DNA from: Aeromicrobium chenweiae
GTDB taxonomy: Bacteria; Actinomycetota; Actinomycetes; Propionibacteriales; Nocardioidaceae
Direction of reading: 5' to 3'
Assembly (NCBI RefSeq): GCF_003065605.1
Contig: NZ_CP026952.1
Coordinates: 2,976,001 to 3,040,000, forward strand
Length of the DNA: 64,000 bases
Positions 8,417 through 28,810 of this stretch are shown piece after piece (position 1 is the stretch's first letter; each line of letters begins with the position of its first letter). Below the pieces are notes generated by a model. That model saw only the letters and a list, made by a program, of their open reading frames with translations. It did no database searches and had not been told where the DNA came from. The translations under genes and the position numbers were made by a program.

Positions 8417-9909
8417 CACGCCGTCGTGGCGGGCGTCGGGCCGTGCACCAGGCGTACGGCGCCGTCGCGGCGCGGGTCGGCGGCGGCCACCAGACGTCCG
8501 TCGTGGCGGCGCAGCGTGGCACCGACCCCGCCGTAGTACATCGTCAGGTCGGTCTCGGTCCGGACGACCTCGTCGGGCCGGCCGGCCCGGTGCACGTGGA
8601 CCCGGCGGTGGTCGACCGCGTCCTGGAGGCCCAGGCCCCCGTTGACGAACCCCGCGAGCACCTGCACGATCGCGGTCGTGATGCGATCGGCGCCCGGCGA
8701 GCCGATCGCGATCGCGGAGCCGTCGACGTGCTGGCCGACGGTCGGTGCCATGTTCGACAGCAGCCGGGTGCCGGGGGCGAGGCCGTGCAGTCCGCGCGGG
8801 TTGAGCTCCTGCTCGCCGAGGCAGTTGTTGAGCCAGATGCCCGTCCCCCGCGCGATCATGCCCGAGCCGTACCCGGACGAGACCGTGACGGCGCAGGCCC
8901 CGCCGTCGCTGTCCGTCGCGGACACGTGGGCGGTCGAGCCCGACTCCAGGGCGCCGACGTCGTCGCGGTCCACGAGGTCGAGGAAGGCCGCCGCGTCCCG
9001 CTCGAGGTCGTCGGCGTGGTCCAGGACGGACAGCCGGTGACCCAGCACCGCGCGCTGCACGTCGATGACGTGCTGCACGTCCTCGGGCTCCCAGGGCCCA
9101 CGCGGGCGCCCGTCGAGCAGCCGCAGCATGGCCGCGACGCACACGCCGCCGACCGACGGGGGCGGGTTGGTGCCGAACGTCCAGTCCCCCGCCCGCGCCA
9201 CCAGCGAGGGCCGCACCACGGGGCGATAGTCAGCGAGGTCCTCGGGGCCCAGGATCCCCCCGCGCCGGATGACGTCCGCACTGATCAGGCGTGCGAGCTC
9301 ACCCGTGTGGAGCGCGGCGGCCCCGTCGGCCGCGATCAGCTCCAGCGACGCCGCGAGGTCGGGCAGCACGAGCTGGCCGGAGTCGATCGCGCCGTCGGCG
9401 TCGTGCACCGCCGCACGGCTCTCCTCGTCCCACCCGAAGATCGCCTCGTGGACGTGCTCGAGGTAGTACCGGGACGCCGCGCTCATCCGGAAGCCGGTCC
9501 GGGCGACCTCGATCGCCGGGGTGACCAGCTCCCGCCACGGGATGCTGCCCCAGCGCCGGTGTGCCTCCTCGAACGCCGCGATCGAGCCGTGCGTGGCGAC
9601 CGAGCCGGCACCGATCGTGATCGTGACGCCGCCGCCGTACTCCGTGTCGACGTCCCACGTGCCGCCGCCGAGAGCCTGTCCCCGGCCGGGCATGTCCATC
9701 CAGCCGTCGACCGTCTGCGGCGGGCTCCCGTCAGGCGGCTGCACCGTGATGAAGCCCCCGGAGCTGAGGGACACGAGGCCGACCTCGTTGACCATCGTGA
9801 CGAGAGAGGCGGCCAGGGCCGCGTCGACCGCGTTGCCGCCGGCCAGGGCGATCCGCTGGCCGGCATCCGCCGCGGCCTCGTTGGGGGCGGCGATCGCGAC
9901 GTCGGGCAT
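8416..9909 (-). CDS. Gamma-glutamyltransferase family protein
   Basis: The 497-residue protein begins near the GGT fold start (AAADAGQRIALAGGNAVDAALA). The autoprocessing nucleophile motif is present as GSTAHVSATD, with Thr326 predicted as the N-terminal residue of the small subunit, followed by the GSGMIARGTGIWLNN and SNMAPT substrate-pocket motifs. No signal peptide is visible and the protein is short of the usual ~570 residues, so it may be an intracellular GGT-like amidohydrolase. GGTs transfer or hydrolyse gamma-glutamyl groups; the exact substrate here is not known. It is translationally coupled to the downstream glycerophosphodiesterase and divergent from nhaA. Confidence 0.88.
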   Translation of the reverse strand: MPDVAIAAPNEAAADAGQRIALAGGNAVDAALAASLVTMVNEVGLVSLSSGGFITVQPPDGSPPQTVDGWMDMPGRGQALGGGTWDVDTEYGGGVTITIGAGSVATHGSIAAFEEAHRRWGSIPWRELVTPAIEVARTGFRMSAASRYYLEHVHEAIFGWDEESRAAVHDADGAIDSGQLVLPDLAASLELIAADGAAALHTGELARLISADVIRRGGILGPEDLADYRPVVRPSLVARAGDWTFGTNPPPSVGGVCVAAMLRLLDGRPRGPWEPEDVQHVIDVQRAVLGHRLSVLDHADDLERDAAAFLDLVDRDDVGALESGSTAHVSATDSDGGACAVTVSSGYGSGMIARGTGIWLNNCLGEQELNPRGLHGLAPGTRLLSNMAPTVGQHVDGSAIAIGSPGADRITTAIVQVLAGFVNGGLGLQDAVDHRRVHVHRAGRPDEVVRTETDLTMYYGGVGATLRRHDGRLVAAADPRRDGAVRLVHGPTPATTA

Positions 9910-9970
9910 GTCGGCAGGCTACCGGTGCGCCCGGGCACCCGCCGGGGACGACCGTCACGCGGCGGCACGT

Positions 9971-10021
9971 AGACTGGACCCCGGTGCGCCGGGAAGTCTG
10001 GTCGGCATGATTCCACCGACC
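9971..10021 (+). promoter_or_regulatory. Structured nhaA leader, candidate Li+/Na+ riboswitch (nhaA-I-like)
   Basis: The 60 bp before nhaA fold into consecutive helices. AGACT (9971-9975) pairs with AGTCT (9995-9999), enclosing a CCCGG-TGCG-CCGGG hairpin (9980-9993). GGTCGG (10000-10005) pairs with CCGACC (10016-10021), ending three bases before the Shine-Dalgarno AGGAG (10024-10028). Position before an Na+/H+ antiporter and proximity to the SD recall the nhaA-I class of lithium/sodium-responsive RNAs. Assignment to that class is from memory and was not tested with a covariance model. Confidence 0.55.
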
Positions 10022-10032
10022 CCAGGAGCCCC

Positions 10033-11304
10033 ATGACCAGCCAGCGCCACCGCCTGTTCCACCGCCCCGGATCCTGGCCCGAGGCCTCCCGGATCACCGA
10101 GATCCTGCGCCAGGAGACCATCGGCGGGGCCCTCCTGATCGTCGCGGCCGTGGCCGCTCTCGTGGCGGCGAACACCGGTGACTGGTACGGCGACCTGCGC
10201 GACACCGTGGTCGGCCCCTCGGCCCTGCACCTCGACCTGAGCCTGGGGACGTGGGCGGCGGACGGCCTGCTCGCGATCTTCTTCTTCGTGGCCGGCCTCG
10301 AGCTCAAGCGCGAGTTCGTCGCCGGCGACCTCCGCGATCCCCGGCGCGCCGCGATCCCCATCGTCGCAGCGGTCGGCGGCATGGTGGTGCCGGCGGTCCT
10401 GTTCACCGTGATCAACCTCGGCGGGTCGCTGCGCGGCTGGGCGGTGCCGACCGCGACGGACATCGCGTTCGCGCTCGCGGTCCTGGCCGTGATCAGCACG
10501 CACCTGCCGACGGGCCTGCGCACGTTCCTGCTGACCCTGGCGATCGTGGACGACCTGCTGGCCATCGTCATCATCGCGGTCTTCTACACCAGCGACCTCG
10601 AGATCCTCTGGTTCCTCGTCGCGCTGCTCCCCCTCGCCGCCTTCACGGTGCTCGTGCAGCGCCGCGTACGCGTCTGGTGGCTCCTGCTGCCGCTCGCCGT
10701 CGTCATCTGGACGCTCGTCCACGCCTCCGGCATCCACGCGACCGTCGCCGGCGTCCTGATGGGCTTCGCCGTCCCGGTCCTGCGCAGGGACGGGAACGAG
10801 GGCCCCGGGCTCGCCGAGCACTTCGAGCACGTCTTCCGCCCGTTGTCGGCTGCCGTCGCGGTGCCGGTCTTCGCGTTCTTCTCCGCCGGGGTGGCGATCG
10901 GCGGCCTGGAGGGGCTGCGGTCGGCCCTGCGCGACCCGATCACGATCGGCGTCGTCGTCGGCCTCGTCGCCGGCAAGACCATCGGCGTGCTGGGCGCGAC
11001 CTGGCTCGCCTCCCGCTTCACCCGGGCCGACCTGGACAGCGACCTCACCTGGATCGACGTGACCGGGCTGTCCATGCTGGCCGGCATCGGGTTCACGGTG
11101 TCGCTGCTGATCGGCGAGCTCGCGTACGGACCGGGCAGCGCCGCCGACGAGCACGTCAAGGTCGGCGTGCTGCTCGGCTCGTTGATCGCGGCGGCGGCGG
11201 CCGCCGTCGTGCTCCGGGCCCGCAACCGGCACTACCGGCGCATCCACGAGCAGGAGACGCTCGACGCCGACGGGGACGGGATCCCCGACGTCTACGAGCA
11301 GTGA
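10033..11304 (+). CDS. nhaA: Na+/H+ antiporter NhaA
   Basis: The 423-residue integral membrane protein belongs to the NhaA family (about 12 helices). The conserved ion-binding aspartates are present: Asp143 in [11 protein letters not shown] and Asp173/Asp174 in [10 protein letters not shown], equivalent to E. coli Asp133, Asp163 and Asp164. It exchanges Na+ or Li+ for protons for pH and sodium homeostasis. The ATG has a good AGGAG upstream, within a structured leader that may control translation. The extreme C-terminus ([15 protein letters not shown]) resembles a calcium-binding DxDxDG loop, an unusual tail for NhaA. It is transcribed convergently with the GH15 gene. Confidence 0.96.
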
Positions 11305-11357
11305 CAACCCGTGTGACCACGGTCACGACGGACTAGCACACCTGACCCGATGTGGCC

Positions 11358-11377
11358 ATACCCACATCTGTGGGTAT
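11358..11377. terminator. 9-bp inverted repeat between convergent nhaA and GH15 gene
   Basis: ATACCCACA (11358-11366) and TGTGGGTAT (11369-11377) form an inverted repeat with a two-base centre in the 135 bp between two convergent genes. The location favours a bidirectional terminator, although there is no T-run and the short spacer would also suit a protein-binding dyad. I see nothing else in this interval. Confidence 0.4.
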
Positions 11378-11439
11378 CCCTGTGAACAGTGCGACACGTT
11401 GTCCTGCGCGGGATGGCAGGCGACACGCCGACGACGGGC

Positions 11440-13263
11440 TCATCGGTCGAGCGCGCGGTCGAGGTTGATGGCCGCGCTGATCAGCGCGAGATGGGTGAAT
11501 CCCTGCGGGAAGTTGCCGAGCTGGTCCCCCGTCGCGCCGACCTCCTCGGCGTACAGGCCGACGTGGTTGGCATACGTGAACATCTTCTCCAGCGCGAGCT
11601 GGGCGTCGTCGAGGCGACCGGCGCGGGTGAGCGCCTCGACGTACCAGAACGAGCACAGCGAGAACGTCCCCTCCTCACCGTCGAGTCCGTCCGGGGCCTC
11701 GTCGGGGTCGTAGCGGAAGACCAGGCTGTCGACCACGAGCCGCTCCTCGATCGCCTCCAGCGTGGAGAGGAACCGCGGGTCCGCGGGCGACAGGAACTTG
11801 ACCATCGGCATGAGGAGCACGCCCGCGTCGAGCGCGTCGCCGCCCTCGACCTGCGTGAACGCCTTCAGGTCCCCGTTCCACGACTCGCTCATGATGCGCT
11901 CGTAGATCTCGTCGCGGACCGCGGCCCAGGCCGGGATGTCGCCGGGAAGACCACGTTGGCGGGCGATGCGGATCGTGCGCTCGATCGCGACCCAGCACAT
12001 CAGCCGGGACGTCGTGTGCGCCCGCAGCGAGCCGCGGACCTCCCACATCCCCGCGTCGTCACGGTCCCAGTTCTCGCACACCCAGTTCACGACCCGCGTG
12101 ACGTCGTTCCACGCGTCGCTGCTGATGCCGGCCCCGTACTTGTTGAACAGGTAGACCGAGTCGATCAGCTCGCCGTAGATGTCGAGCTGGAGCTGGTCGA
12201 CAGCCGCGTTGCCGACGCGGACCGGTTGCGAGCCTCGGTGGCCCGAGAGGTGGTCGAGCCGGGTCTCCTCGCGGGGGACGTTGCCGTCGATGTCGTACAG
12301 GACGCGCAACGGGCCCAGGTCGTCGGACTGCTCGGACTCGCTGCCCAGGCGCTCGGAGAGCCACCGGATGAACGCCGACGCCTCGTCGGTGAAGCCGAGC
12401 CGCAGCAGCGCGTACAGCGTGAAGCCCGCGTCGCGCATCCACACGAAGCGGTAGTCCCAGTTGCGGTCGCCGCCGATCGCCTCGGGCAGGCTGGTCGTCG
12501 GCGCGGCGATGACCGCTCCGCTCGGCTCGTGCGTGAGCAGCTTGAGGGTGATCGCCGAGCGATTGACCATCTCGCGCCACCGACCGGTGTACGACGACTG
12601 CGACAGCCATCCCCGCCAGAACGCGGCCGTGGCCTCGAACAGCGCCGAGGTGTCCTCCACGTCCGCCTCGCGCAGCTCCTCGTCGGCGTCGAGCACCTCC
12701 AGCACGAACAGCGCGACGTCACCGGTGCTGAGCTCCAGGTTCGCCGACACGATCCCGTCCTCGATGTCGAGGTCGCAGGACGCGCTCACACCCATCCGCA
12801 TGCCGTCCCCGGTCAGCAGGACCCCGTGCTCGACCGTCTCGGCCTCGCAGCTGGCCCGGCCGTAGTCGGGCCGGGCGTCGAGCCGCATCCGGATGTGCGT
12901 CGTCCCCCGCACGGCCACGACCCGTCGCACGAGCCGCTGGCGGTGGTCGGGGTCGCGAGCCTGCAGCACCGGCATGAAGTCGTGGACCTCGACGACCCCG
13001 TCCTTGGTCAGGAACCGGGTCGCGAGCATCGCCGAGTCCGGGAAGTAGAACTGCTGGGTGCGCACCGTGCCGTCGCGCGGCTCGATCTGCCAGGAGCCGC
13101 CCTCCTCGGGGTCGAGGATCGCCCCGAAGATGCTCGGCGAGTCGAAGCGCGGGGCGCAGAACCAGTCGATCGTCCCGTCGGTGCCGACCAGCGCCGCGGT
13201 GCGCAGGTCACCGATCAGTCCGTGGTCCTCGATCGCCAGCTGACCCTCGGGGTCCTCAGGCAT
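11440..13263 (-). CDS. Glycoside hydrolase family 15 protein (glucoamylase/trehalase-like)
   Basis: The 607-residue protein begins [34 protein letters not shown], the N-terminal beta-domain signature of bacterial GH15 proteins. It continues into an (alpha/alpha)6 barrel with [14 protein letters not shown] around residue 270 and a C-terminal [20 protein letters not shown] block that carries a catalytic acid in the family. Substrates are alpha-linked glucans or trehalose; actinobacterial members of this type are often trehalases. No signal peptide is visible, so it is probably cytosolic. The ATG at 13263 overlaps the G6PDH stop by 8 bp, giving a zwf-GH15 operon that could feed released glucose into the pentose phosphate pathway after phosphorylation. 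Confidence 0.9.
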
Positions 13264-17173: not shown

Positions 17174-18733
<1,560 letters not shown>

Positions 18734-18979: not shown

Positions 18980-21511
18980 TCAGCGGCGGACCTTGCCGAC
19001 CTTGACCGTCGTCGCCTTCGTCGTGAAGCCGGACTTCTTGGACGTGATGACGACCTTGATCGTCCTGCCTGCCCACTGCTTCTTGAGCTTGAGCCGGGTC
19101 TTCGTCGCGCCGGGGATCGCCTTGTTGCTGACGTACCAGCGATACGTGACCGACGATGCCTTCGGGCTCAGCGAGCCCGCCCGGAGCGTCAACGTCTTGC
19201 CCACCTTGTGGCTGCCTCGCACCGACGGGCGCTTCGACTGCGTGAAGGTGCGCGGGACGCTGCCGACGGTGGTCATCGTCGTGACCGTCGCATAACCTCG
19301 CTTGCTGCTCGCGATCGCGACCCGGATGACCTGTCCGCCCCAACCGCTCTGGAGCTTCAGGCGGTTCGACGTCGCTCCCGGGATCAGCGTCGATCCGCGG
19401 TACCACTGGTACGTGACCGCGTCCGGCGAAGGACTCAGCGAGCCCCGCCTGACCGTCAGCGTCCGACCGGCCTGGAGCACGCCGGAGACCGATGGCTGCG
19501 AGACCGTCAGGAACTCCTTCGGCCCCTCCGGGGCCACGGACTTCTTCTCACCCTCGGTCCACCAGGAGTCGCCGTACGTCGTGTCGCGGAGGGCGTTCGT
19601 CACGCAGTGGATCTGGCCGCCGCGGTTCGTGTAGAAGTAGTCCTCGGCCCACTGCACCTCGGTCCCGATCTCGGCGAAACGTGCCTCGATCTCGGCCTGG
19701 AACACATCCTGGCCGTCGACCGCCGGCGCGTGCTGCGTGGGGATGAGGACCACGTCATGTCCGGTGCCGATGAGGTTGGACGCGTTGGGCACCTGGACAC
19801 CGACCCGGCCACGACCCGCCGCACCCTCGCGGTACAGAACCGGGACGCGGATGATGTCAGCCTCGGTGAGTCCGGCCTCCTCGCGCAGGACCTTCAGCGC
19901 GCGGTTGACGCCGGCGTGGCCGATAGCGGTGCCGTTGACGATCAGGGGGTCGTTGACGGCCTCCGCGATGGTGGTGGTCGGAGGGGTCGTCCCCTCCGGC
20001 GGCACCAGGTCGTACGCGGTGTAGAGCCGCTCGTCGCCCCGGCCGTCCTCCACGAGCTCCTCGAGCATGTCCAGGGCGAGCTTCGGGTCCGCGGCGACCA
20101 GGGCCCAGCCACGGTCGTTGTCAGCAGGGATCACCGACATGAACTCGTCGATGTGTCCGACGTTGAGCCAGCTGGTGTCGACCGTGATCGGGTCCTGGAA
20201 GCCCTGCAGTGCGAGCATCTTGTTGAAGGCGGGATCGGCGGTGAACTCCGTGCCCGGCACGGCGCCGAACACCTTGCGACCGAGCGGGTAGCTCTTGCCG
20301 TTGTGCTCGTACGCCGGGAGGGTGCCGTAGTTGCCGGTCGAGCCTCGGCTGTCATAGCTCATGCCGGCAATGGTCGGCGGCACGTACGCAGGGTCGAAGT
20401 GCTGGATCCCGGCCACGTCAGGACCGCGCAGCTCGGTGAAGACGACCCGACCTGTCTGCCGGAACGGGTTGCTCCCGGCGTTGTCCCGGCCGTCGCGCAC
20501 CGGCGCGCGGACGAACACCCGCATCTGCTGCTCGCCGTCCCCCGAGGGGATCGACATGAGTCCGGGCTCCATGATGTCCTGGGTCCAGATGTCGGTGCCG
20601 TCGCCGCCGCCCCGGGCGCCCTGCATGCTGGGCAGCTTCTCCAGCTGGACGTCACCGTCCATGCGTTCCATCCCGGCGAGGAAGTCGGCCGCCATGGCCT
20701 CGGCGCTCTGCCTGGTGCGCAGGGTTCCGGCAGTCGGCGCCGGCATCTCGACGTCTTCGTAGACCGACGTCTCGTTGTCGGCCATGTACAGCTTCTCGAT
20801 GGGCATGCTGTCGGTGACGAACAGCAGCGGAGCGACCCGCAGCTGCACCTCGTCGGTGGCGACCTGTTTCGAGCCGCTGCGATGAACGACGCGAACCGTG
20901 ACGCTGCCGTCCCACGACTCGTCGCGGATGATGTCCTTGCCCTCGATGCCGAGCTCCACGCCGTCCTCGATCAGGTCGGACGGCAGGGCGCCGTTCGCCC
21001 CCAGCCGCGTCCAGTCCCCTGCCGAGGAGCCCTCGCCGCGCTTGACGAAGACGTTGACCTTCGCCGCGCCGACGCCGCGCAGCTCGACGCGGACCGCGCT
21101 GACCTCGTCCGGGTCGACCGGCTGCACCCGGATGCGGGCCAGGTCCTTGACGTCGGTGTCCCCGTTGACGACGCCGTCGGCGGCGTCGTTGCACGAGGCC
21201 AGCTGGACGTCCGTGAGCTGCGTGCCGCCGGACCCGATCGTCGGGCAGCGGCTCGTGTCGTCGTCCAGGTTCGCCAGGAAGAACGCGCCCCGGTCCTTGG
21301 ACCAGGAGGCACGCCCGTTCGCGTCCTTGGCATCGATGACACCGTCACGGTTGGTGTCGGAGAGGATCAGCGCCCCGGTGTCGTTCGCGGCGACGGACGG
21401 CGTGGCGATGGCCTGGATGCCGCCACCGGCCAGGACGGCCGCGGTGGCGATGAACGCGCCGGAGCGGGCCCACGTGCGTGGCGCCCTCGTCTGTTGGATG
21501 TGGAGTGACAT
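18980..21511 (-). CDS. Secreted protein-arginine deiminase (PAD) with C-terminal tandem repeats
   Basis: The 843-residue protein has an N-terminal export signal (residues ~1-42, Ala/Gly-rich core), an EF-hand/dockerin-like loop (DTNRDGVIDAKD, residues 52-63), beta-rich middle domains and a PAD catalytic domain. The catalytic set is intact: Asp312 in WTQD, His453 and Asp455 in GHIDEF, and Cys636 in GGQIHCVTN, matching human PAD4 Asp350, His471, Asp473 and Cys645. Two Ig-like repeats (about 672-754 and 758-840, each with GSLSP..VTY.WY...IPGAT..RLKL) end the protein and may bind cell wall or carbohydrate. PADs convert peptidyl-arginine to citrulline with calcium. ATG 21511 is chosen because AAAGAGAG precedes it and the signal peptide follows; the frame is open to 21610. 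It lies downstream of an IclR-type HTH gene and an APC permease. Confidence 0.9.
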   Translation of the reverse strand: MSLHIQQTRAPRTWARSGAFIATAAVLAGGGIQAIATPSVAANDTGALILSDTNRDGVIDAKDANGRASWSKDRGAFFLANLDDDTSRCPTIGSGGTQLTDVQLASCNDAADGVVNGDTDVKDLARIRVQPVDPDEVSAVRVELRGVGAAKVNVFVKRGEGSSAGDWTRLGANGALPSDLIEDGVELGIEGKDIIRDESWDGSVTVRVVHRSGSKQVATDEVQLRVAPLLFVTDSMPIEKLYMADNETSVYEDVEMPAPTAGTLRTRQSAEAMAADFLAGMERMDGDVQLEKLPSMQGARGGGDGTDIWTQDIMEPGLMSIPSGDGEQQMRVFVRAPVRDGRDNAGSNPFRQTGRVVFTELRGPDVAGIQHFDPAYVPPTIAGMSYDSRGSTGNYGTLPAYEHNGKSYPLGRKVFGAVPGTEFTADPAFNKMLALQGFQDPITVDTSWLNVGHIDEFMSVIPADNDRGWALVAADPKLALDMLEELVEDGRGDERLYTAYDLVPPEGTTPPTTTIAEAVNDPLIVNGTAIGHAGVNRALKVLREEAGLTEADIIRVPVLYREGAAGRGRVGVQVPNASNLIGTGHDVVLIPTQHAPAVDGQDVFQAEIEARFAEIGTEVQWAEDYFYTNRGGQIHCVTNALRDTTYGDSWWTEGEKKSVAPEGPKEFLTVSQPSVSGVLQAGRTLTVRRGSLSPSPDAVTYQWYRGSTLIPGATSNRLKLQSGWGGQVIRVAIASSKRGYATVTTMTTVGSVPRTFTQSKRPSVRGSHKVGKTLTLRAGSLSPKASSVTYRWYVSNKAIPGATKTRLKLKKQWAGRTIKVVITSKKSGFTTKATTVKVGKVRR

Positions 21512-21667
21512 GCGCTCTCTTTCGTCTGGGAGCAATTCGAGTCCGCTGTCAGCGGGCCGGGCCCAGTACAGCGACGCGCAGTTGCCGCACAGTTCCACCG
21601 GGGTTGCCATCGGGTAGGTCCAAATGAGACACCCCCACCGGCTTCGTCGCCGCCAGGATCGCGCTGC

Positions 21668-21958
21668 TCAGACGACGCTCTCGCTCGTGTGCGGCCGACC
21701 GGAGTCGGTCGCAGGAACGGTCGCCTGCTCGGCCTGGCGTCCGAGCGCCACGACACGGACACCCAGGACGAAACCACTCAGATCGGGAGTCCTGACGAGA
21801 TACTCCTGCGCGACCAGATGCTTGAGGATCCGGTAGACGGTGGCCCTGGACATGGGCAGCACGCCCAGCAGGGTCCGCGTCGTGACGCCCGGTCCCAGGT
21901 CCGCCACGGCCTCCAGCACCGCGAAGGCGTTGTCGACGGCTCCGGGCTCGCGCGCCAC
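21668..21958 (-). CDS. IclR-type HTH-only regulator
   Basis: The 96-residue protein contains only a winged HTH of IclR type (AVDNAFAVLEAVADLG; TRTLLGVLPMSRATVYRILKHLVAQEYLVR). The normal IclR effector-binding domain (~150 residues) is missing. GTG 21958 is chosen because a perfect AGGAGG (21968-21973) sits nine bases upstream; a GTG at 21982 is possible. It follows the APC permease stop by 16 bp and is probably co-transcribed with it. It may regulate the permease and the deiminase genes on either side, or be a domain remnant. Confidence 0.72.
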   Translation of the reverse strand: MAREPGAVDNAFAVLEAVADLGPGVTTRTLLGVLPMSRATVYRILKHLVAQEYLVRTPDLSGFVLGVRVVALGRQAEQATVPATDSGRPHTSESVV

Positions 21959-21974
21959 GAAGACGTCCCTCCTG

Positions 21975-23441
21975 TCAGGCACGGAGCTCCTTGCCCTCCG
22001 GGCCGCCCGCCAGAAGAACCTCGTGCACCAGCCCCACGTCGTGGGCTCCGACACGCACGGCGCCCTGCGGCATCCTGGACCTGATCGCCAGTCGCCAGGC
22101 CAGGCCCGCCACGACGACCCCGCCGAGCAGGCCGGCCGCCCAGCAGGAGCCCTGCCCCGCCTCACGGACGACTCGGTGGGCGGCGACTGCGCTGACCCCG
22201 AGGAAGGCCAGGCCCGAGGCCACCACCGCCCGGGCACGCACCTCGTCCAGCGTCCGCAGGAACGGGACGAGCGCCAGCGCCGCGCAGGCGTACGCGACGC
22301 ACATGATCGTGGTGGAGGCCCCCAGGAGGTGACCGGACACTGCGGTCGCGCTTCCACCCTCGACCCATGCGGCGAACGGGACCAGGAGAGCCAACGGCAG
22401 GATGCACCACATGGCGATGACCGGGACACCGCCGCGACCGGTGCGCCCCAGGGCGGACCACACGATCCCTTCACGCGCGAAGGAGAACAACAACCGGGAC
22501 AACGCCGTCCAGGCGCACAACGCGAGAGCCAGCAGGGACACCCCAAGGATCACGAGAGCCACGGCGTCGGGCCAGGAGATCTGGGCCTCGACGTTGAACC
22601 AGCGGCGGTTCCACAGCGGGCCGTCGTCCGGTGGCGCCAACGTGCCCACCAGGTTGGCGGTCAGGAAGAGCCCGCCGGTGACCAGCAGGCTCGTCCTCAT
22701 GGCGGCGGGGACGGCGCCCTGAGGTCGTTCGGTCTCCAGGCCGAGCGATGCGCAGCTCTCGAACGCGACCGTGAGCGCGGCGATCATGCCCGCACCGGCG
22801 AGGACGTGTTCGACCGATGCGCCGGAGAGGGAGAATGCCTCCGCGCTCGGCATCCCGTACCTCACGACCCACACCGAGAAGATCGTCAACAGCAGCAGGA
22901 TGCTGACGGTCTCGGCCCCGAACGCAGCCCGTGTCGACCACCGGATGCCCCGGCGCATCACCAGCAGGCACGTTGCCGCGGACAGGAGCACCAGGATCCA
23001 TCCGGCCTGGTTGTCGGGCGCGCTGCCACCCACCGCCGTCCAGGCCCCTTCGAAGCGGCGGGCGCCACCGGTGAGCCCGAACCCGATCAGGATGCCGTAC
23101 CCCAGGACGAGGGCGACGCCGACGATCAGGGCGACCGTCGCACCCAGACCCTTGGCCACGTACGTGTAGAGCGACCCAGCCGCAGTGAAGCGGGACGAGA
23201 ACTGGTCGAAGACCACCGCGAGCAGTGCCGCTAGCCCGAACCCCAGCACCGTGCTGATCCAGAAGCCCGGACCGACGATCGAGGGCAGGGCCAGGCCCGT
23301 GCCGAGCGCGCTGAGTGACGGCGTGAGGACGGCGACCGAGTGGGCCACCAGGTCACGACGCCCCACCTGACGCCGCGCCAGCCCCTCGAACGCCGATCGC
23401 CGACCGAACTCGGGCGTCTCTGGTCGTGGATCGCCGCGCAC
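21975..23441 (-). CDS. APC-superfamily amino acid permease
   Basis: The 488-residue protein has about 12-14 transmembrane helices and APC features (SVAVLTPSLSALGTGLALPSIVGPG in helix 1, FDQFSSRFTAAGSLYTYVAKGLG, and FESCASLGLETERPQGAVPAAM). GTG 23441 is preceded by GGAGGG. It would import or exchange amino acids or related amines; the substrate cannot be read from the sequence. It is the first gene of a three-gene run with the IclR-type HTH and the secreted arginine deiminase, so arginine, citrulline or peptide-derived amino acids are reasonable candidates by context only. Confidence 0.9.
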   Translation of the reverse strand: MRGDPRPETPEFGRRSAFEGLARRQVGRRDLVAHSVAVLTPSLSALGTGLALPSIVGPGFWISTVLGFGLAALLAVVFDQFSSRFTAAGSLYTYVAKGLGATVALIVGVALVLGYGILIGFGLTGGARRFEGAWTAVGGSAPDNQAGWILVLLSAATCLLVMRRGIRWSTRAAFGAETVSILLLLTIFSVWVVRYGMPSAEAFSLSGASVEHVLAGAGMIAALTVAFESCASLGLETERPQGAVPAAMRTSLLVTGGLFLTANLVGTLAPPDDGPLWNRRWFNVEAQISWPDAVALVILGVSLLALALCAWTALSRLLFSFAREGIVWSALGRTGRGGVPVIAMWCILPLALLVPFAAWVEGGSATAVSGHLLGASTTIMCVAYACAALALVPFLRTLDEVRARAVVASGLAFLGVSAVAAHRVVREAGQGSCWAAGLLGGVVVAGLAWRLAIRSRMPQGAVRVGAHDVGLVHEVLLAGGPEGKELRA

Positions 23442-23541: not shown

Positions 23542-25233
23542 TCAGCTCACGCCGACGATGGGCAGCCGCAGGGCGGCCGGGGCGCCCGCGGGCACGACCG
23601 GGTTCTTCGGGGCGATCGGCTCGATCGCGCGATAGGGCTCGCCCATCGCCGGGCGCTGATCGGCCTCGCCCTTGTTGGGCCAGTACGACATGGCCCGCTC
23701 GGTCTGGGCCGTGATCGTCAGGGACGGGTTGACGCCGAGGTTCGCGGTGATCGCCGAGCCGTCCGCGACGTGCAGGCCCGCGTGGCCGTACAGACGCTGG
23801 TACGGGTCGACGACGCCGGTCTCGGGCGAGTCACCGATCGCGCAGCCACCCATGAAGTGGGCGGTCAGCGGGACGTTGAACGGCTCGCCGATCGTGCCGC
23901 CGGGGGTGCCGCCCATCTCCTCGGCCATCATCTGGACGGCCCGGTGCCCGGGCTCGATGAACGCCGGGTTGGGCGCGCCGTGGCCCTGCCGCGACGTCAG
24001 GCGGCGCCGGCCCGTGATGCCCCGCTTGGTGTAGGTCGTGATCGAGTTGTCGTGCGTCTGCATGACCAGCGCGATGACCGTGCGCTCGGACCAGTGCCGC
24101 AGGTCGTACAGCTTGAGCAGGTTGCGCTTCTGGCGCCACATCTCCCGCAGCCACACCCGCCAGCGCGGGGTGTCGGTGCTGCCGTCCGTGAGAACGGTCT
24201 GCAGGAGCGACATCGCGTTCGAGCGCCGGCCGTAGCGGGTCGGCTCGATGTGGGTGAACTCGTCGGGATGGAACGACGAGGTGATCGCGACGCCCTCGCT
24301 GTAGTCGACGTCCTTGTCGTCGGCGATCGACCCCAGCAGCGCCTCGGAGTTCGTTCGCGTCAGCAGCCCCAGGCGGTCCGAGACACCGGGCAGGTGCCCC
24401 TGGTCGCGCATCGCGTGCAGCAGCTTCTGCGTGCCCATCGTGCTGGCGCTGAAGACGACCTGCTCCGCGGTGATCGTCCGGTGCTTGCGGAAGCGCTTGT
24501 TGGTCCGCCGCGTCTCGATCTCGTACCCCCCGCCGGCCAAGGGACGCACCGCGACCGCGGTGGTCAACGGGTGCACCTCGGCCCCGGCGGCCTCGGCGAG
24601 GTGCAGGTAGTTCTTGACCAGCGTGTTCTTGGCGTTGTGGCGGCACCCGGTCATGCACTCGCCGCAGTTGAGGCACGCGTTCCGGTCCGGACCGACACCG
24701 CCGAAGAACGGATCGGCGACCTTCTCCCCCGGCTGGCCGAAGTAGACGCCGACCGGGGTGTGGTGGAAGGTGCCGCCCACGCCCATGCGCTCGGCCACCT
24801 TCTTGACGACCTCGTCGGCGGGCGAGACGTACGGGTAGACCCTCACGCCGAGCATGCGCTTGGCCTGGTCGTAGTAGGGCGCGAGCTCGGTCCTCCAGTC
24901 CGTGATGTGGCCCCACGCGGGGTCCTCGTAGAACGGGTCCAGCGGCTCGTAGAGCGTGTTGGCGTAGACCAGCGAGCCACCCCCGACGCCCGCTCCCGAG
25001 AGGATCAGGACGTCCTTGAGCTTGTCGATGCGCTGGATGCCGTAGCAGCCGAGCTGCGGCAGCCAGAGGAACTTGCGCAGTCGCCACGAGCTCGTGGCGA
25101 AGTCCTCGTCCTCGAAGCGCTTGCCGGCCTCGAGCACGGCCACCTTGTAGCCCTTCTCGGTGAGTCGGAGGGCCGAGACGCTGCCCCCGAAGCCGGAGCC
25201 GATCACCAGGACGTCGTAGTCGAACGCGGTCAT
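23542..25233 (-). CDS. GMC-family FAD oxidoreductase with Cys-rich motif (ChoD-like)
   Basis: The 563-residue protein starts with an FAD-binding Rossmann motif (DVLVIGSGFGGSVSALRL) and ends with the GMC C-terminal block (HFMGGCAIGDSPETGVVD; HVADGSAITANLGVNPSLTITAQ). A CX2CX2CX3C motif is present at Cys187, Cys190, Cys193 and Cys197, like a 4Fe-4S ligand set, which classical GMC oxidases lack. It resembles the M. tuberculosis protein annotated ChoD (Rv3409c), which also lies beside guaB3. Cholesterol oxidase activity should not be assumed. No signal peptide is visible. Confidence 0.9.
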   Translation of the reverse strand: MTAFDYDVLVIGSGFGGSVSALRLTEKGYKVAVLEAGKRFEDEDFATSSWRLRKFLWLPQLGCYGIQRIDKLKDVLILSGAGVGGGSLVYANTLYEPLDPFYEDPAWGHITDWRTELAPYYDQAKRMLGVRVYPYVSPADEVVKKVAERMGVGGTFHHTPVGVYFGQPGEKVADPFFGGVGPDRNACLNCGECMTGCRHNAKNTLVKNYLHLAEAAGAEVHPLTTAVAVRPLAGGGYEIETRRTNKRFRKHRTITAEQVVFSASTMGTQKLLHAMRDQGHLPGVSDRLGLLTRTNSEALLGSIADDKDVDYSEGVAITSSFHPDEFTHIEPTRYGRRSNAMSLLQTVLTDGSTDTPRWRVWLREMWRQKRNLLKLYDLRHWSERTVIALVMQTHDNSITTYTKRGITGRRRLTSRQGHGAPNPAFIEPGHRAVQMMAEEMGGTPGGTIGEPFNVPLTAHFMGGCAIGDSPETGVVDPYQRLYGHAGLHVADGSAITANLGVNPSLTITAQTERAMSYWPNKGEADQRPAMGEPYRAIEPIAPKNPVVPAGAPAALRLPIVGVS

Positions 25234-25308: not shown

Positions 25309-26346
25309 GTGCCCACCTCGCTGATCCGCCTGCTCGCGCAGGACCTGCGGCGGGTCGGACCCGGCGCCGTCAACGCCCTGACGGCGACCCGTGTCGGCAT
25401 CGCCGTCGCGGTCCCCCTGATCGTCCTCGTGGCCGTCGACCGCCTCGACTGGTCGGCGTTCTGCGCCTTCGGCACGTTCACCGCGATCTACGGCCGCACG
25501 CTCTCGCGCCGCGTCCGGGCCGTCCAGCAGGTGAAGGTGGGTCTCGCGCTCGTCGCGGCCATCACCACCGGGACAGTCGCGGCGATGTCCTCACACCAGA
25601 GCTTCTGGATCGTGGTGGGCGGCTCGCTGGCCGCGATGACGATGGCGGTGCTGGCCGACATCGGCCAGTGGAAGCCGCCCGGGGGCCTCTTCGCGGTGTT
25701 CGCCTTCACGGTGTGCGCCACCCAGGCCGGTGCCACCTGGCACACCGTGCTGATCGCGGCCGTCCTCGGCACCGCGTCGGCGGCGTTCGCGATCGTCGTC
25801 AGCGCGATCGGGCCCGAGGGCACCGGCGGCGCGCCGGAGACACGGGGACTGCGCGAGCACCTGTCCGACCCCGCCACGCTGCGTCACGCGGTCCGCCACC
25901 TGGTGGCTCCCCTGCTGACCGGATGGGTCGCCGTGCTGCTGCACATCGGCCACCCGTACTGGGGCATGGTCGCGGCGATCGTCCCGCTGACCTCGCCGTC
26001 GATGCGCGAGATGGCCTTCCGGGGCGTCCACCGGCTGGTCGGCACCGTGCTGGGTCTCGGGCTCACCGCCCTGATCCTCGCGTTCGACCCCAGCGCCGTG
26101 GCGCTCGTCGTCGTCATCATCGCGGCCCAGTTCATGACCGAGCTGATCGTGCTGCGGCACTACGCGCTGGCCCTCGTGTTCATCACGCCGCTGGCCCTCC
26201 TGATGGGCCAGCTCGTGCACCCGCTCCCGGCCGGCGACGTCGTCACCCAACGCGCCGTCGAGACGCTGCTCGGCGTCGTGATCGGGCTGGGCGTCGCCTG
26301 GCTCACCCGCAGGCGTCCTCAGGCGAAGAGCTTCTCGCCCCAGTAG
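25309..26346 (+). CDS. FUSC-family membrane protein (aromatic acid exporter-like)
   Basis: The product of about 345 residues has two blocks of hydrophobic helices (residues ~25-165 and ~200-330) around a cytoplasmic linker, the layout of FUSC/YccS-type proteins. The second block contains HPYWGMVAAIVPLTSPSMREMAFRGVHRLVGTVLG, the FUSC signature. Some homologues export aromatic acids, but no substrate can be assigned here. GTG 25309 is preceded by GGAG at a long distance; an ATG at 25255 would add 18 residues. The 3' end overlaps the convergent efeB gene by 28 bp. Confidence 0.82.
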   Translation: MPTSLIRLLAQDLRRVGPGAVNALTATRVGIAVAVPLIVLVAVDRLDWSAFCAFGTFTAIYGRTLSRRVRAVQQVKVGLALVAAITTGTVAAMSSHQSFWIVVGGSLAAMTMAVLADIGQWKPPGGLFAVFAFTVCATQAGATWHTVLIAAVLGTASAAFAIVVSAIGPEGTGGAPETRGLREHLSDPATLRHAVRHLVAPLLTGWVAVLLHIGHPYWGMVAAIVPLTSPSMREMAFRGVHRLVGTVLGLGLTALILAFDPSAVALVVVIIAAQFMTELIVLRHYALALVFITPLALLMGQLVHPLPAGDVVTQRAVETLLGVVIGLGVAWLTRRRPQAKSFSPQ

Positions 26347-27617
26347 CCGGTGGTGCCGACGCCGGGCGGGCACGCGAACAGGCCCGATCCGACGTGGACG
26401 ATGTACTCGTTGAGGGTGTCGTTCTGCAGCCCCGCGAGCGAGCGCTGGATCTGCACGAACTGCTTCTCGGGGTCGCGCTGGTACGCGATGAAGAACAGCC
26501 CCGCCGACAGCTGGCCGAGGCCGTTGGAGCCGTCCACGAAGTTGTAGCCGCGGCGCAGCAGCTTCGCGCCGTTGTTGGCGTCGGGGTGCGCGAGACGCAC
26601 GTGGGACTTCGTGTCGATCAGCGGCTTGCCCGTCTCGTCCTTGGCGTCGAAGTCCAGGTCCGCGAACTCGTCGCCGCCCGAGCGGGGCCCGCCGGAGCCC
26701 TTCGTGCGGCCGATGATCGCCTCCTGCCCCTCCAGCGGCTCGCGGTCCCAGATCTCGATGCGCATGTCGATCTTGCGCGAGACGAGGTACGAGCCACCGA
26801 CGAGCCACGCGGGACCGTCGTCCTCGTGCACCCACACGAAGTCGTCGACGTCCTTGGCGTCCTCGACCTTGATGTTGGCCGTGCCGTCCTTGAAGCCGAA
26901 CAGGTTGCGGGCGGTCACCTGCGCGGTCGACGTCGACGAGGTCCGGCCGAAGCCCATCTGCGAGTAGCGGACCGAGGCGCGACCGAAGGCGATGCGGGCG
27001 AAGTTGCGCACCGCGTGCACCGCGACCTGGGGGTCGTTGGCGCACGCCTGCACCGCGATGTCCCCGTCGCTGATGGCCTGGTCCAGACGGTCGCCCGCGA
27101 ACGACGGCAGGTTCTTCAAGCGGTCAGGCAGCCGGCCCTCGAGCCCGAACCGGGTCCTGCCCTTGTCGTCGACGAACAGGCTGCGGCCGAACCCGATCGT
27201 GAGGGTGAGGCCCGACGGGGGCAGGCCGAGCGCTTCACCGGTGTCCTCCGGCGGCGCGTACGGCGATCCGCTCACGGCGCCGAAGTCACCGACGTCGTTG
27301 CCCTGCGTCATCTGACGGGCCGCGGCGGTCCAGTCCTTCAGCAGCGAGATGAGGTCCTCGCGCTTGTCCGAGGTCATGTCGAACGTTGCGAAGTAGAGCC
27401 GGTCCTGCGACGGCGTGACGATGCCCGCCTGGTGCGCGCCCTCGAACGGGATCGGGGCGGCGTCGGGGTCGACGACGCCGGCCGGGGCCTTCGGCTCACC
27501 GGACGCCTGGCCCACCGCGTAGCCGCCGCCGGCGCCCACCGCCAACGCGCCGACCCCGGCCGCTCCCAGCAGCTTCCTGCGCGAGAGGCCGGAACCGGAG
27601 TGGTCCTGGGCGGTCAT
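26319..27617 (-). CDS. efeB: Dyp-type peroxidase EfeB (Tat-exported)
   Basis: The 432-residue protein has a twin-arginine signal (LSRRKLLGAAGVGALAVGAGG, RR at 13-14) and a Dyp-type heme peroxidase fold. The distal-site motif GFKDGTANI carries the catalytic Asp, and SHVRLAHP supplies a candidate proximal His. It ends ACPPGVGTTGYWGEKLFA. In the Efe system it is the periplasmic or extracellular heme peroxidase that assists ferrous iron use. It follows efeO with a 9-bp gap and should be part of the same iron-repressed transcript. The permease gene efeU is not adjacent. Confidence 0.94.
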   Translation of the reverse strand: MTAQDHSGSGLSRRKLLGAAGVGALAVGAGGGYAVGQASGEPKAPAGVVDPDAAPIPFEGAHQAGIVTPSQDRLYFATFDMTSDKREDLISLLKDWTAAARQMTQGNDVGDFGAVSGSPYAPPEDTGEALGLPPSGLTLTIGFGRSLFVDDKGRTRFGLEGRLPDRLKNLPSFAGDRLDQAISDGDIAVQACANDPQVAVHAVRNFARIAFGRASVRYSQMGFGRTSSTSTAQVTARNLFGFKDGTANIKVEDAKDVDDFVWVHEDDGPAWLVGGSYLVSRKIDMRIEIWDREPLEGQEAIIGRTKGSGGPRSGGDEFADLDFDAKDETGKPLIDTKSHVRLAHPDANNGAKLLRRGYNFVDGSNGLGQLSAGLFFIAYQRDPEKQFVQIQRSLAGLQNDTLNEYIVHVGSGLFACPPGVGTTGYWGEKLFA

Positions 27618-27626
27618 GAGGTCAGG

Positions 27627-28760
27627 CTACGCAGACGCGGCAACTGCGGCCGCGACCTGGCTGATGGGCTCGCTCAGCGCCGCCACGGCGTTGGACAGGG
27701 CCTTGACCTGGTCCTTCGTCAGCTCGTCGTAGAACGTCCACGCACCGGTGTCCTTGTCCTGGTGCTGGTTGAGCTCCCGGTCGAGCGCCGCGAACTGCTC
27801 GTCGAGCTTCCTCACGAGGGCCGGGTCCTGCTTCTCCAGGACCGGACGCAGCGAGGCGATCGCGGCCTGCGAGCCCTCCACGTTCGCCTTGAAGTCCCAC
27901 AGGTCGGTGTGGCTGAACTCGTCCTCCTCGCCGGTGATCTTGCCGGTCGCCACCTCGTCGAGGAGCCCCTTGGAGCCCTGCGCGAGCTCGAGCGCGGTGA
28001 GCGGGGTGTCCTGGCCGAGCTGGACGATCTTCTTGACGTTGCCGAGCAGCTGATCGGCGTACTTGTCCATGCCCTCGGTGTTGTCCTCGACCCAGAGCTG
28101 CTTCTCGATGCGGTGCCAGCCGGTGAAGTCCACGCCCTCGGCCTTCGCGTCGGGCTCGCGGCCGTCCGTGATCGGGTCCAGGTCGCCGAACTTCTCCGCG
28201 ACGGGCTCGATGCGCTCCCAGTACGTGCGCGCGATCGGGAAGAGCTGCTTGGCCTTGTCGACGTCCCCGGCCTTGACCGCGTCAACGAACTCCGTCGTCT
28301 TGACGATCAGGGTGTCGCTCTGCGACTTGACGTAACGGGCGTAGCTGTCGGCGGCGGCCTGCAGCTCCTGGGAGTCCGAGAGCCGCTTCGCGGCCTGCCC
28401 CGTCACCGTCAGGGTCTGGCGGATGCCGTCGCCGATCATGCCGGGCTTGCACGCGCCCTCGTACGTACCCTTCGGCAGGTCGACGACCAGGTTGCGGGTC
28501 AGGCCGGGACCGATGTTCTCGACCTCGCCCATGATGCGGTCGCCCTCGGCGTACACGTAGAACTCGGTGACCTTGGAGCCCTTGTTGCTGACCTTGAACG
28601 TCGACGGACCGGCCTCGAGCTTCGTCGCCGAGACGTCGCAGGACGAGTCGGTGGCGGCGACCGACAGGTCTCCGCTCGCGGTCGACTCGTCCGGGTCGGA
28701 CGCGCAGGCGCTGAGACCCACCGCGACGAGGGCACCGACGACGACGAGGCTGGGCTTCAT
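27627..28760 (-). CDS. efeO: EfeO iron-uptake lipoprotein (cupredoxin plus M75 domain)
   Basis: The 377-residue protein has a lipoprotein signal (VAVGLSAC, Cys19), an N-terminal cupredoxin-like domain (~35-125, CDVSATKLEAGPSTFKVSNKG) and an imelysin/M75 domain with the metal motif GWHRIEKQLW (HxxE). EfeO captures iron outside the membrane for transport. The ATG at 28760 has GAAGGA just upstream; an ATG two codons earlier would overlap the SD. An iron-box sequence lies 32 bp upstream. It is followed by efeB. Confidence 0.94.
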   Translation of the reverse strand: MKPSLVVVGALVAVGLSACASDPDESTASGDLSVAATDSSCDVSATKLEAGPSTFKVSNKGSKVTEFYVYAEGDRIMGEVENIGPGLTRNLVVDLPKGTYEGACKPGMIGDGIRQTLTVTGQAAKRLSDSQELQAAADSYARYVKSQSDTLIVKTTEFVDAVKAGDVDKAKQLFPIARTYWERIEPVAEKFGDLDPITDGREPDAKAEGVDFTGWHRIEKQLWVEDNTEGMDKYADQLLGNVKKIVQLGQDTPLTALELAQGSKGLLDEVATGKITGEEDEFSHTDLWDFKANVEGSQAAIASLRPVLEKQDPALVRKLDEQFAALDRELNQHQDKDTGAWTFYDELTKDQVKALSNAVAALSEPISQVAAAVAASA

Positions 28761-28791
28761 GGGCATTCCTTCAGGGCTACGTGCTGTCAGA

Positions 28792-28810
28792 TTAGGCAAG
28801 CCTCACCATG
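28792..28810. promoter_or_regulatory. IdeR/DtxR-type iron box upstream of efeO
   Basis: TTAGGCAAGCCTCACCATG matches the 19-bp DtxR/IdeR consensus (TTAGGTTAGCCTAACCTAA) at about 13 positions, keeping the TTAGG and GCCT cores. It sits between efeO and the divergent membrane protein gene. Iron-dependent repression of efeOB is the expected effect. Confidence 0.75.

Follow-up and report, generated by a model that had tools for sequence, protein, structure and literature searches.

A candidate amine- or amino-acid-utilization cassette in Aeromicrobium chenweiae with a protein-arginine deiminase in its enzyme slot

Results and Discussion

Gene content of the locus

We analyzed a 64,000-nucleotide stretch of the Aeromicrobium chenweiae genome (assembly GCF_003065605.1, contig NZ_CP026952.1, positions 2,976,001 to 3,040,000; hereafter the window, in whose numbering coordinates are given), which carries a minus-strand triad of genes that may constitute a portable cassette for the use of amines or amino acids. 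In order of transcription, the window's open reading frames encode an APC-superfamily permease (21975..23441; 488 amino acids, GTG start), an IclR-type helix-turn-helix (HTH) regulator (21668..21982; 104 amino acids, GTG start) and a PAD-family protein-arginine deiminase (PAD; 18980..21511; 843 amino acids, ATG at 21511). An earlier interpretation of the same DNA from its letters alone (the sequence-only reading) had placed the three together on one strand, and Pfam matches and coordinates bear this out: the deiminase matched PF03068 over residues 217-651 (E 2.9e-62, 211.3 bits against a cut-off of 25), the regulator matched PF09339, the IclR winged HTH (E 3.3e-08, 33.6 bits against 22), and the permease matched PF00324 (E 2e-09, 37.1 bits against 24.6). 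Because the IclR_C effector-binding domain was not found by Pfam in the 104-amino-acid protein, the regulator is an IclR-type HTH-only protein. The tight spacing described for the triad holds for the permease and HTH genes, where the permease stop overlaps the HTH start by 8 bases, but not for the HTH and PAD genes, which are separated by a 156-base gap (21512..21667, minus strand) in which the PAD may have its own promoter. The same gap contains, on the minus strand, the 10-mer GTCTCATTTG (21621..21630), the predicted operator of the HTH protein.

Conservation of the triad

PAD genes above the Pfam cut-off are scarce, occurring in 1 of 49 genomes of the genus, 7 of 341 of the family and 11 of 394 of the class (overlapping sets, each of which includes the window's own genome; partial PAD-profile matches below the cut-off in two genomes of the genus, G017 and G021, were left out of these counts), and the closest named relatives belong to Nocardioides. 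The co-occurrence of PAD, short HTH and APC genes that the sequence-only reading had suggested looking for proved to be conserved in six of the seven Nocardioidaceae genomes with a PAD (the window, L002, L003, L004, L061 and L062), in six distinct genomic settings whose flanking genes are for the most part unrelated; G321 (locus L063) was the only family genome seen with a PAD alone. The six triad PADs form one clade (support 100/100), with the G321 PAD next to it, so a PAD probably became linked to the APC-HTH pair a single time, and the linkage was then retained at different places. The flanks retrieved around the remaining PAD loci, almost lacking on the upstream side in L005 and L020, contained no APC or HTH relative, and no mobile carrier of the window PAD was found among eight plasmid records (Streptomyces 6, Embleya 1, Curtobacterium 1), all of them below 60% identity and four matching the C-terminal part only.

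In the window, the triad is inserted between guaA (17174..18733) and a gene for a GMC-type oxidoreductase (23542..25233), both on the minus strand and outside the cassette, which adjoin in relatives. The proposed insertion into an existing gene order is upheld by a comparison with matches to the GMC flank elsewhere in the genus (24 other loci, over 1.5 kb downstream of the GMC gene): in 12 of them guaA lies within that distance and the triad is absent.

Two side observations concern these PAD genes. In Nocardioides sp. TF02-7, the APC gene and the PAD repeat region are frame-broken (L004:8011-9610 and 9836-12505), possibly through sequencing errors in a genome that is 70% complete. Two class genomes, G401 (L070, L193) and G415 (L069, L195), encode a PAD 49% identical to that of the window and hold, elsewhere in the genome and unlinked to the PAD, an amine-oxidase/IclR cluster without an APC gene.

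A wider cassette around the permease-regulator pair

Relatives of the HTH protein were taken as all matches at E<=6e-14 in the 341 family genomes (n=27; 132 of these genomes had a match at E<=0.001, of which the 27 strongest and a fusion in genome G105 were read) and at E<=1e-9 among the 394 class genomes, with neighboring genes drawn from a home-made codon-score caller, mostly over 7-10 kb on each side and less at contig ends. Over the 37 loci read, the HTH gene is accompanied by a copper amine oxidase (PF01179) in 26, a PAD in 6, an amidase in 3 and neither in 2. The 27 Nocardioidaceae loci contribute 17 copper amine oxidases (11 secreted-type, 6 canonical), the 6 PADs, 2 secreted-type amidases (PF01425) that sit directly in the place of the PAD, and the 2 loci with neither, and the ten further loci outside the family contribute 9 amine oxidases and 1 amidase, whose identity was confirmed. 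The regulator and transporter had been read as the PAD's own, a claim that did not survive this comparison: the pair belongs to a wider cassette, in which different enzymes, usually a copper amine oxidase, stand behind the same two genes. In 10/10 rows, from secreted and canonical amine oxidases alike, the cofactor Tyr, the base Asp and the three copper His are kept.

Of 33 loci, 25 have overlapping permease and HTH genes, and in G105 (L154:7405-9120) an APC domain (residues 8-468) and an IclR/MarR-type HTH (490-571) share one 572-amino-acid open frame, a single case read from the assembly. The overlaps and the fusion point to permease and HTH acting jointly as a unit, which, if true, would be an unusual transporter-linked regulator of transcription. 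As called, the HTH protein has 76-124 amino acids in PAD, Nocardioidaceae-amidase and Nocardioidaceae secreted-oxidase cassettes and 216-264 in the remaining ones, except L190 (101), L145 (91) and L149 (151), and the 250-amino-acid relative in L194 has an IclR_C domain. APC is absent from L142, L193 and L195, and the HTH gene of L142, missed by the gene caller, was placed from the search for HTH relatives. In G159 (L144:8618-11961), the APC gene is in two pieces, and about 1.6 kb holding other genes lies between APC and HTH.

In a tree of the permeases of 33 of the 37 loci (L004, L142, L193 and L195 were left out), the PAD cassettes group with the Nocardioidaceae amidase cassettes (7 rows) at a Shimodaira-Hasegawa-like approximate likelihood ratio test (SH-aLRT) support of 99, and this group joins two secreted-amine-oxidase cassettes in a 9-row set, likewise supported at 99 and nested inside a larger secreted-oxidase group. 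Cassettes of this kind are also found in annotated copper amine oxidase clusters on plasmids of Rhodococcus, Arthrobacter, Paenarthrobacter and Tsukamurella. Six of ten plasmid matches were read, with an amine oxidase near the APC-IclR pair in all six and a second permease in five, and in the Arthrobacter locus L203 the cassette adjoins formaldehyde-assimilation genes. These clusters share with the window the APC and IclR pair, mostly as overlapping or nearly adjoining genes, and in three of six gaps the TCTCATT core of the predicted operator; the window differs in its enzyme, a probably secreted PAD, and in its HTH protein, which lacks the IclR effector domain. The window locus has the overlapping pair and the TCTCATT motif, and we regard it as a variant, not a plain member, of the amine-oxidase cassette because a PAD stands in place of the copper amine oxidase.

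A predicted operator

The sequence GTCTCATTTG occurs in the HTH-PAD gap of five of the six triads, and the sixth (L061) has GTCTCAGTTG. Its rarity was judged on the exact 10-mer over whole genomes. The 3.7-Mb genome of the window (G000) holds it once, at 21621-21630, and it likewise occurs once, at the cassette, in one genome with an amidase (G005), three with a PAD (G246, G264 and G239) and three with an amine oxidase (G226, G111 and G613); G126 has three copies and G206 two, one of them at the cassette in each case, and G143, G115 and G688 have none. The reversed control 10-mer is absent from 12 of these 13 genomes. With one mismatch allowed the motif is not rare, one being found in the 64-kb window against 0.98 expected.

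Ahead of the enzyme operon, 26 of 35 loci carry a looser motif core, where dinucleotide shuffles predict 2.65 (PAD 6/6, amidase 2/3, secreted oxidase 11/17, canonical oxidase 7/9), a count that takes in a weak reverse-strand match in L195, possibly due to chance, and scores L139 as a miss, even though an exact copy falls within the 3'-terminal part of the HTH gene there. The strict core, TCTCATT, occurs in three of the six plasmid gaps (3, 1 and 2 copies) against about 0.12 expected from first-order Markov samples, and these six gaps played no part in defining the motif. Because the triad co-occurs at six places and a genome-unique 10-mer lies between HTH and PAD, the three genes look like one system, in which the HTH protein is predicted to bind GTCTCATTTG; the identity of the cassette and its predicted regulation are well supported by sequence.

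A search for palindromes alone returned no shared inverted repeat, and a widened motif, KTCTCAKTYGR, with six sites in G000 against four for the reversed control, cannot define further members of a regulon. In L142, two face-to-face copies of the motif (GTCTCGTTTGAGGTGAC) stand before an Ig-repeat gene (L142:2704-2733), and a further copy (L142:4384) stands before the amine-oxidase genes.

The deiminase and its characterized relatives

The catalytic set named in the sequence-only reading was numbered correctly, and Asp312, His453, Asp455 and Cys636 are invariant in all 27 aligned PADs. A profile built from this alignment matched human PAD2 and PAD4 over the middle and catalytic domains (E 4.3e-140 and 4.7e-140, respectively), and Pfam found no PAD_N domain in the window PAD. 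A hydrophobic segment of export type is visible by eye at the N-terminus, a putative signal that agrees with the export first proposed, and the enzyme is probably secreted. The two C-terminal Ig-like repeats are likewise present (about residues 665-843), in a tail of 207 residues after the catalytic Cys, compared with 9-23 residues in the 20 alignment rows outside Nocardioidaceae.

The Ca2+-loop-like segment stood in part. The DTNRDGVIDAKD loop is present, but the full animal-type calcium sites Ca1/Ca2 were not found in the window PAD, which has Gly396 and Ile313 at the positions equivalent to the PAD4 ligands E411 and E351. We take the full Ca1/Ca2 ligand set to be an animal-type feature that membership of the PAD family does not require. 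At the E411 equivalent, Gly occupies the 12 rows of the window PAD's subclade and Glu the other 15, and calcium control of the window PAD may differ from that of animal PADs. Judged from sequence alignment of the substrate pocket, an Arg six residues before the catalytic Cys, the presumed equivalent of PAD4 R639, is found in 6/6 triad PADs and 0/21 others, and the region of PAD4 R374 has no clear alignment to the window PAD.

To our knowledge, the roles of PADs in bacteria are largely untested. Porphyromonas gingivalis PPAD is a secreted bacterial enzyme for arginine residues. In the window PAD we take the Asp of a 'GPD' motif, matched by alignment, to be the calcium-switch residue of PADIs. 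Two-domain PADIs of actinobacteria and fungi have been described by Cummings et al. 2021 (PMC8826395) and, in the sections of that paper used here, they agree with the window PAD in family, in middle and catalytic domains, in all catalytic residues and in calcium sites unlike those of animal PADIs, whereas Gly is reported at the calcium-switch position where the window PAD keeps the Asp. The window PAD further differs in the Gly at its E411 equivalent, in C-terminal Ig-like repeats, found in seven Nocardioidaceae rows, and in being embedded in an APC-HTH cassette. In the same sections, PPAD is called an extended agmatine deiminase and not a member of the PAD family to which the window enzyme belongs, animal PADs are proposed to derive from cyanobacterial ones, and the main text contains none of the terms operon, transporter, secretion, periplasm, genomic context or gene neighborhood (PMC8826395). 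Human PAD2 and PAD4 (structures 4n2c, 3apn and others) have the same catalytic residues as the window PAD, which differs from them in its export-type segment, in that no PAD_N was found and in partly different calcium ligands. In searches of an open-licence library, we found no paper on PAD with Nocardioides, or on amine oxidase with IclR and APC or with actinobacteria, and, among the papers listed, none on such a cassette by title and start of abstract. The enzyme is of a known kind; the cassette, its predicted operator and the proposed enzyme exchange represent a new variation on known kinds.

Proposed function and alternative explanations

We propose, with a probability of roughly 0.6, that the locus is a portable cassette for the use of amines or amino acids, containing a transporter and a regulator, in which a secreted PAD came to occupy the enzyme slot. 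The permease would supply the sensing/transport half and the overlapping HTH the DNA-binding half of a single regulatory unit whose cue is an amine or amino acid; by binding GTCTCATTTG in the 156-base gap, the HTH would switch the gene of a secreted nitrogen-releasing enzyme. A copper amine oxidase fills this role in most of the actinobacterial cassettes read; its place would have been taken by a PAD in one Nocardioidaceae lineage, probably once, and by a secreted amidase in a related lineage. Once exported, the PAD would deiminate peptide- or protein-bound arginine outside the cell, or else a small guanidine, and so yield ammonia and citrulline. The permease would take up, or sense, a compound of the amine or amino-acid class linked to the substrate or the product, and the cell could then draw on ammonia, citrulline or similar compounds. 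More tentatively, the permease may itself be the sensor: in this lineage the HTH protein would have lost its effector domain and become an accessory of the permease, forming a transporter-receptor that controls one operator. Behind that retained operator amine oxidase, amidase and PAD, all secreted and nitrogen-releasing, would have been exchanged for one another, and protein deimination would in this way have entered an amine-sensing circuit.

Several points weigh against the proposed cassette. The PAD substrate and the permease cargo are guesses, ammonia release is a presumed common theme, and all members of the cassette are known here from their sequences alone. Since the six triad PADs form one clade, conservation of the triad counts as one joining event followed by transfer, not as six independent ones, and the G321 PAD, close to that of the window (58% identity) yet outside the cassette, indicates that a PAD can stand alone. 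In the permease tree the PAD rows come together at a support of only 56 and the root is a midpoint root, for which reasons the direction of the enzyme exchange is one that we infer. The window's genome holds two copper amine oxidases elsewhere, so the PAD did not replace amine-oxidase activity genome-wide. As to the operator, the looser pattern was chosen after part of the same loci had been viewed and 9 of the 35 lack it, three of the six plasmid gaps lack the strict core, and no motif site was found before APC in the window.

The substrate of the PAD might instead be a small guanidino compound, such as free arginine or agmatine, broken down outside the cell, with the permease importing the product. 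Amine oxidases, the usual partners of the pair, generally act on small amines, and both the formaldehyde-assimilation genes beside L203 and the unclear alignment at the PAD4 R374 region would suit such a substrate, yet we find it doubtful, given that the closest characterized family is that of the peptidyl-arginine deiminases, matched over middle and catalytic domains at E 4.3e-140, and that all six triad PADs carry the presumed R639 equivalent. This Arg, present in 6/6 triad PADs and 0/21 others, is compatible with peptide binding and could also serve a factor of antagonism or host interaction that citrullinates competitor or host proteins, with regulator and permease timing the PAD to amino-acid supply. 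Such a factor would accord with the export-type N-terminus, with Ig-like repeats that could bind surfaces, and with the fold family and catalytic set of enzymes acting on proteins. It nevertheless seems unlikely, as the neighbors of the same unit of APC, HTH and motif include amine oxidases and amidases, enzymes that usually serve nutrition, and the few annotated flanking genes hold nothing suggestive of antagonism, a weak point given the partial annotation of the six flanks. The sequence-only reading had host or competitor proteins among the possible targets; nothing we examined points to these, and the context points to amine/nitrogen metabolism.

Plain hitch-hiking, in which recently transferred DNA happens to hold a PAD beside an unrelated APC-HTH pair, strikes us as very improbable. 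The single clade of triad PADs and the insertion of the cassette at an otherwise joined site would fit it, but the triad is kept at six places with mostly unrelated flanks, the motif core in its looser pattern occurs in 6/6 HTH-PAD gaps, and the slot downstream of the HTH holds an amidase, or an amine-oxidase operon (L139, L141), in related cassettes. Under the proposed exchange of enzymes within a utilization cassette, the conserved regulator, the one-copy predicted operator and the amine-oxidase context provide a handle on when a bacterial PAD is made and what for, and the cassette offers a clue, open to testing, to the regulation of such an enzyme.

Additional observations

Arginase was considered as a companion of the cassette and set aside as uninformative, being present in only 4 of 13 cassette-related genomes. 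Beside a secreted-type amine oxidase, L104:7281-8539 encodes a DUF305 protein and a type-I signal-peptidase-like S26 protein, and DUF305/S26 gene clusters recur in L105-L108, L143, L144 and L146; these neighbors may hint at dedicated export processing of the secreted-type amine oxidase. Near the window locus, genes that by eye resemble those for a DyP-type peroxidase (26319-27617) and for an EfeO-like protein (27627-28799) may together (26319-28799) mark a ferrous-iron uptake cluster.

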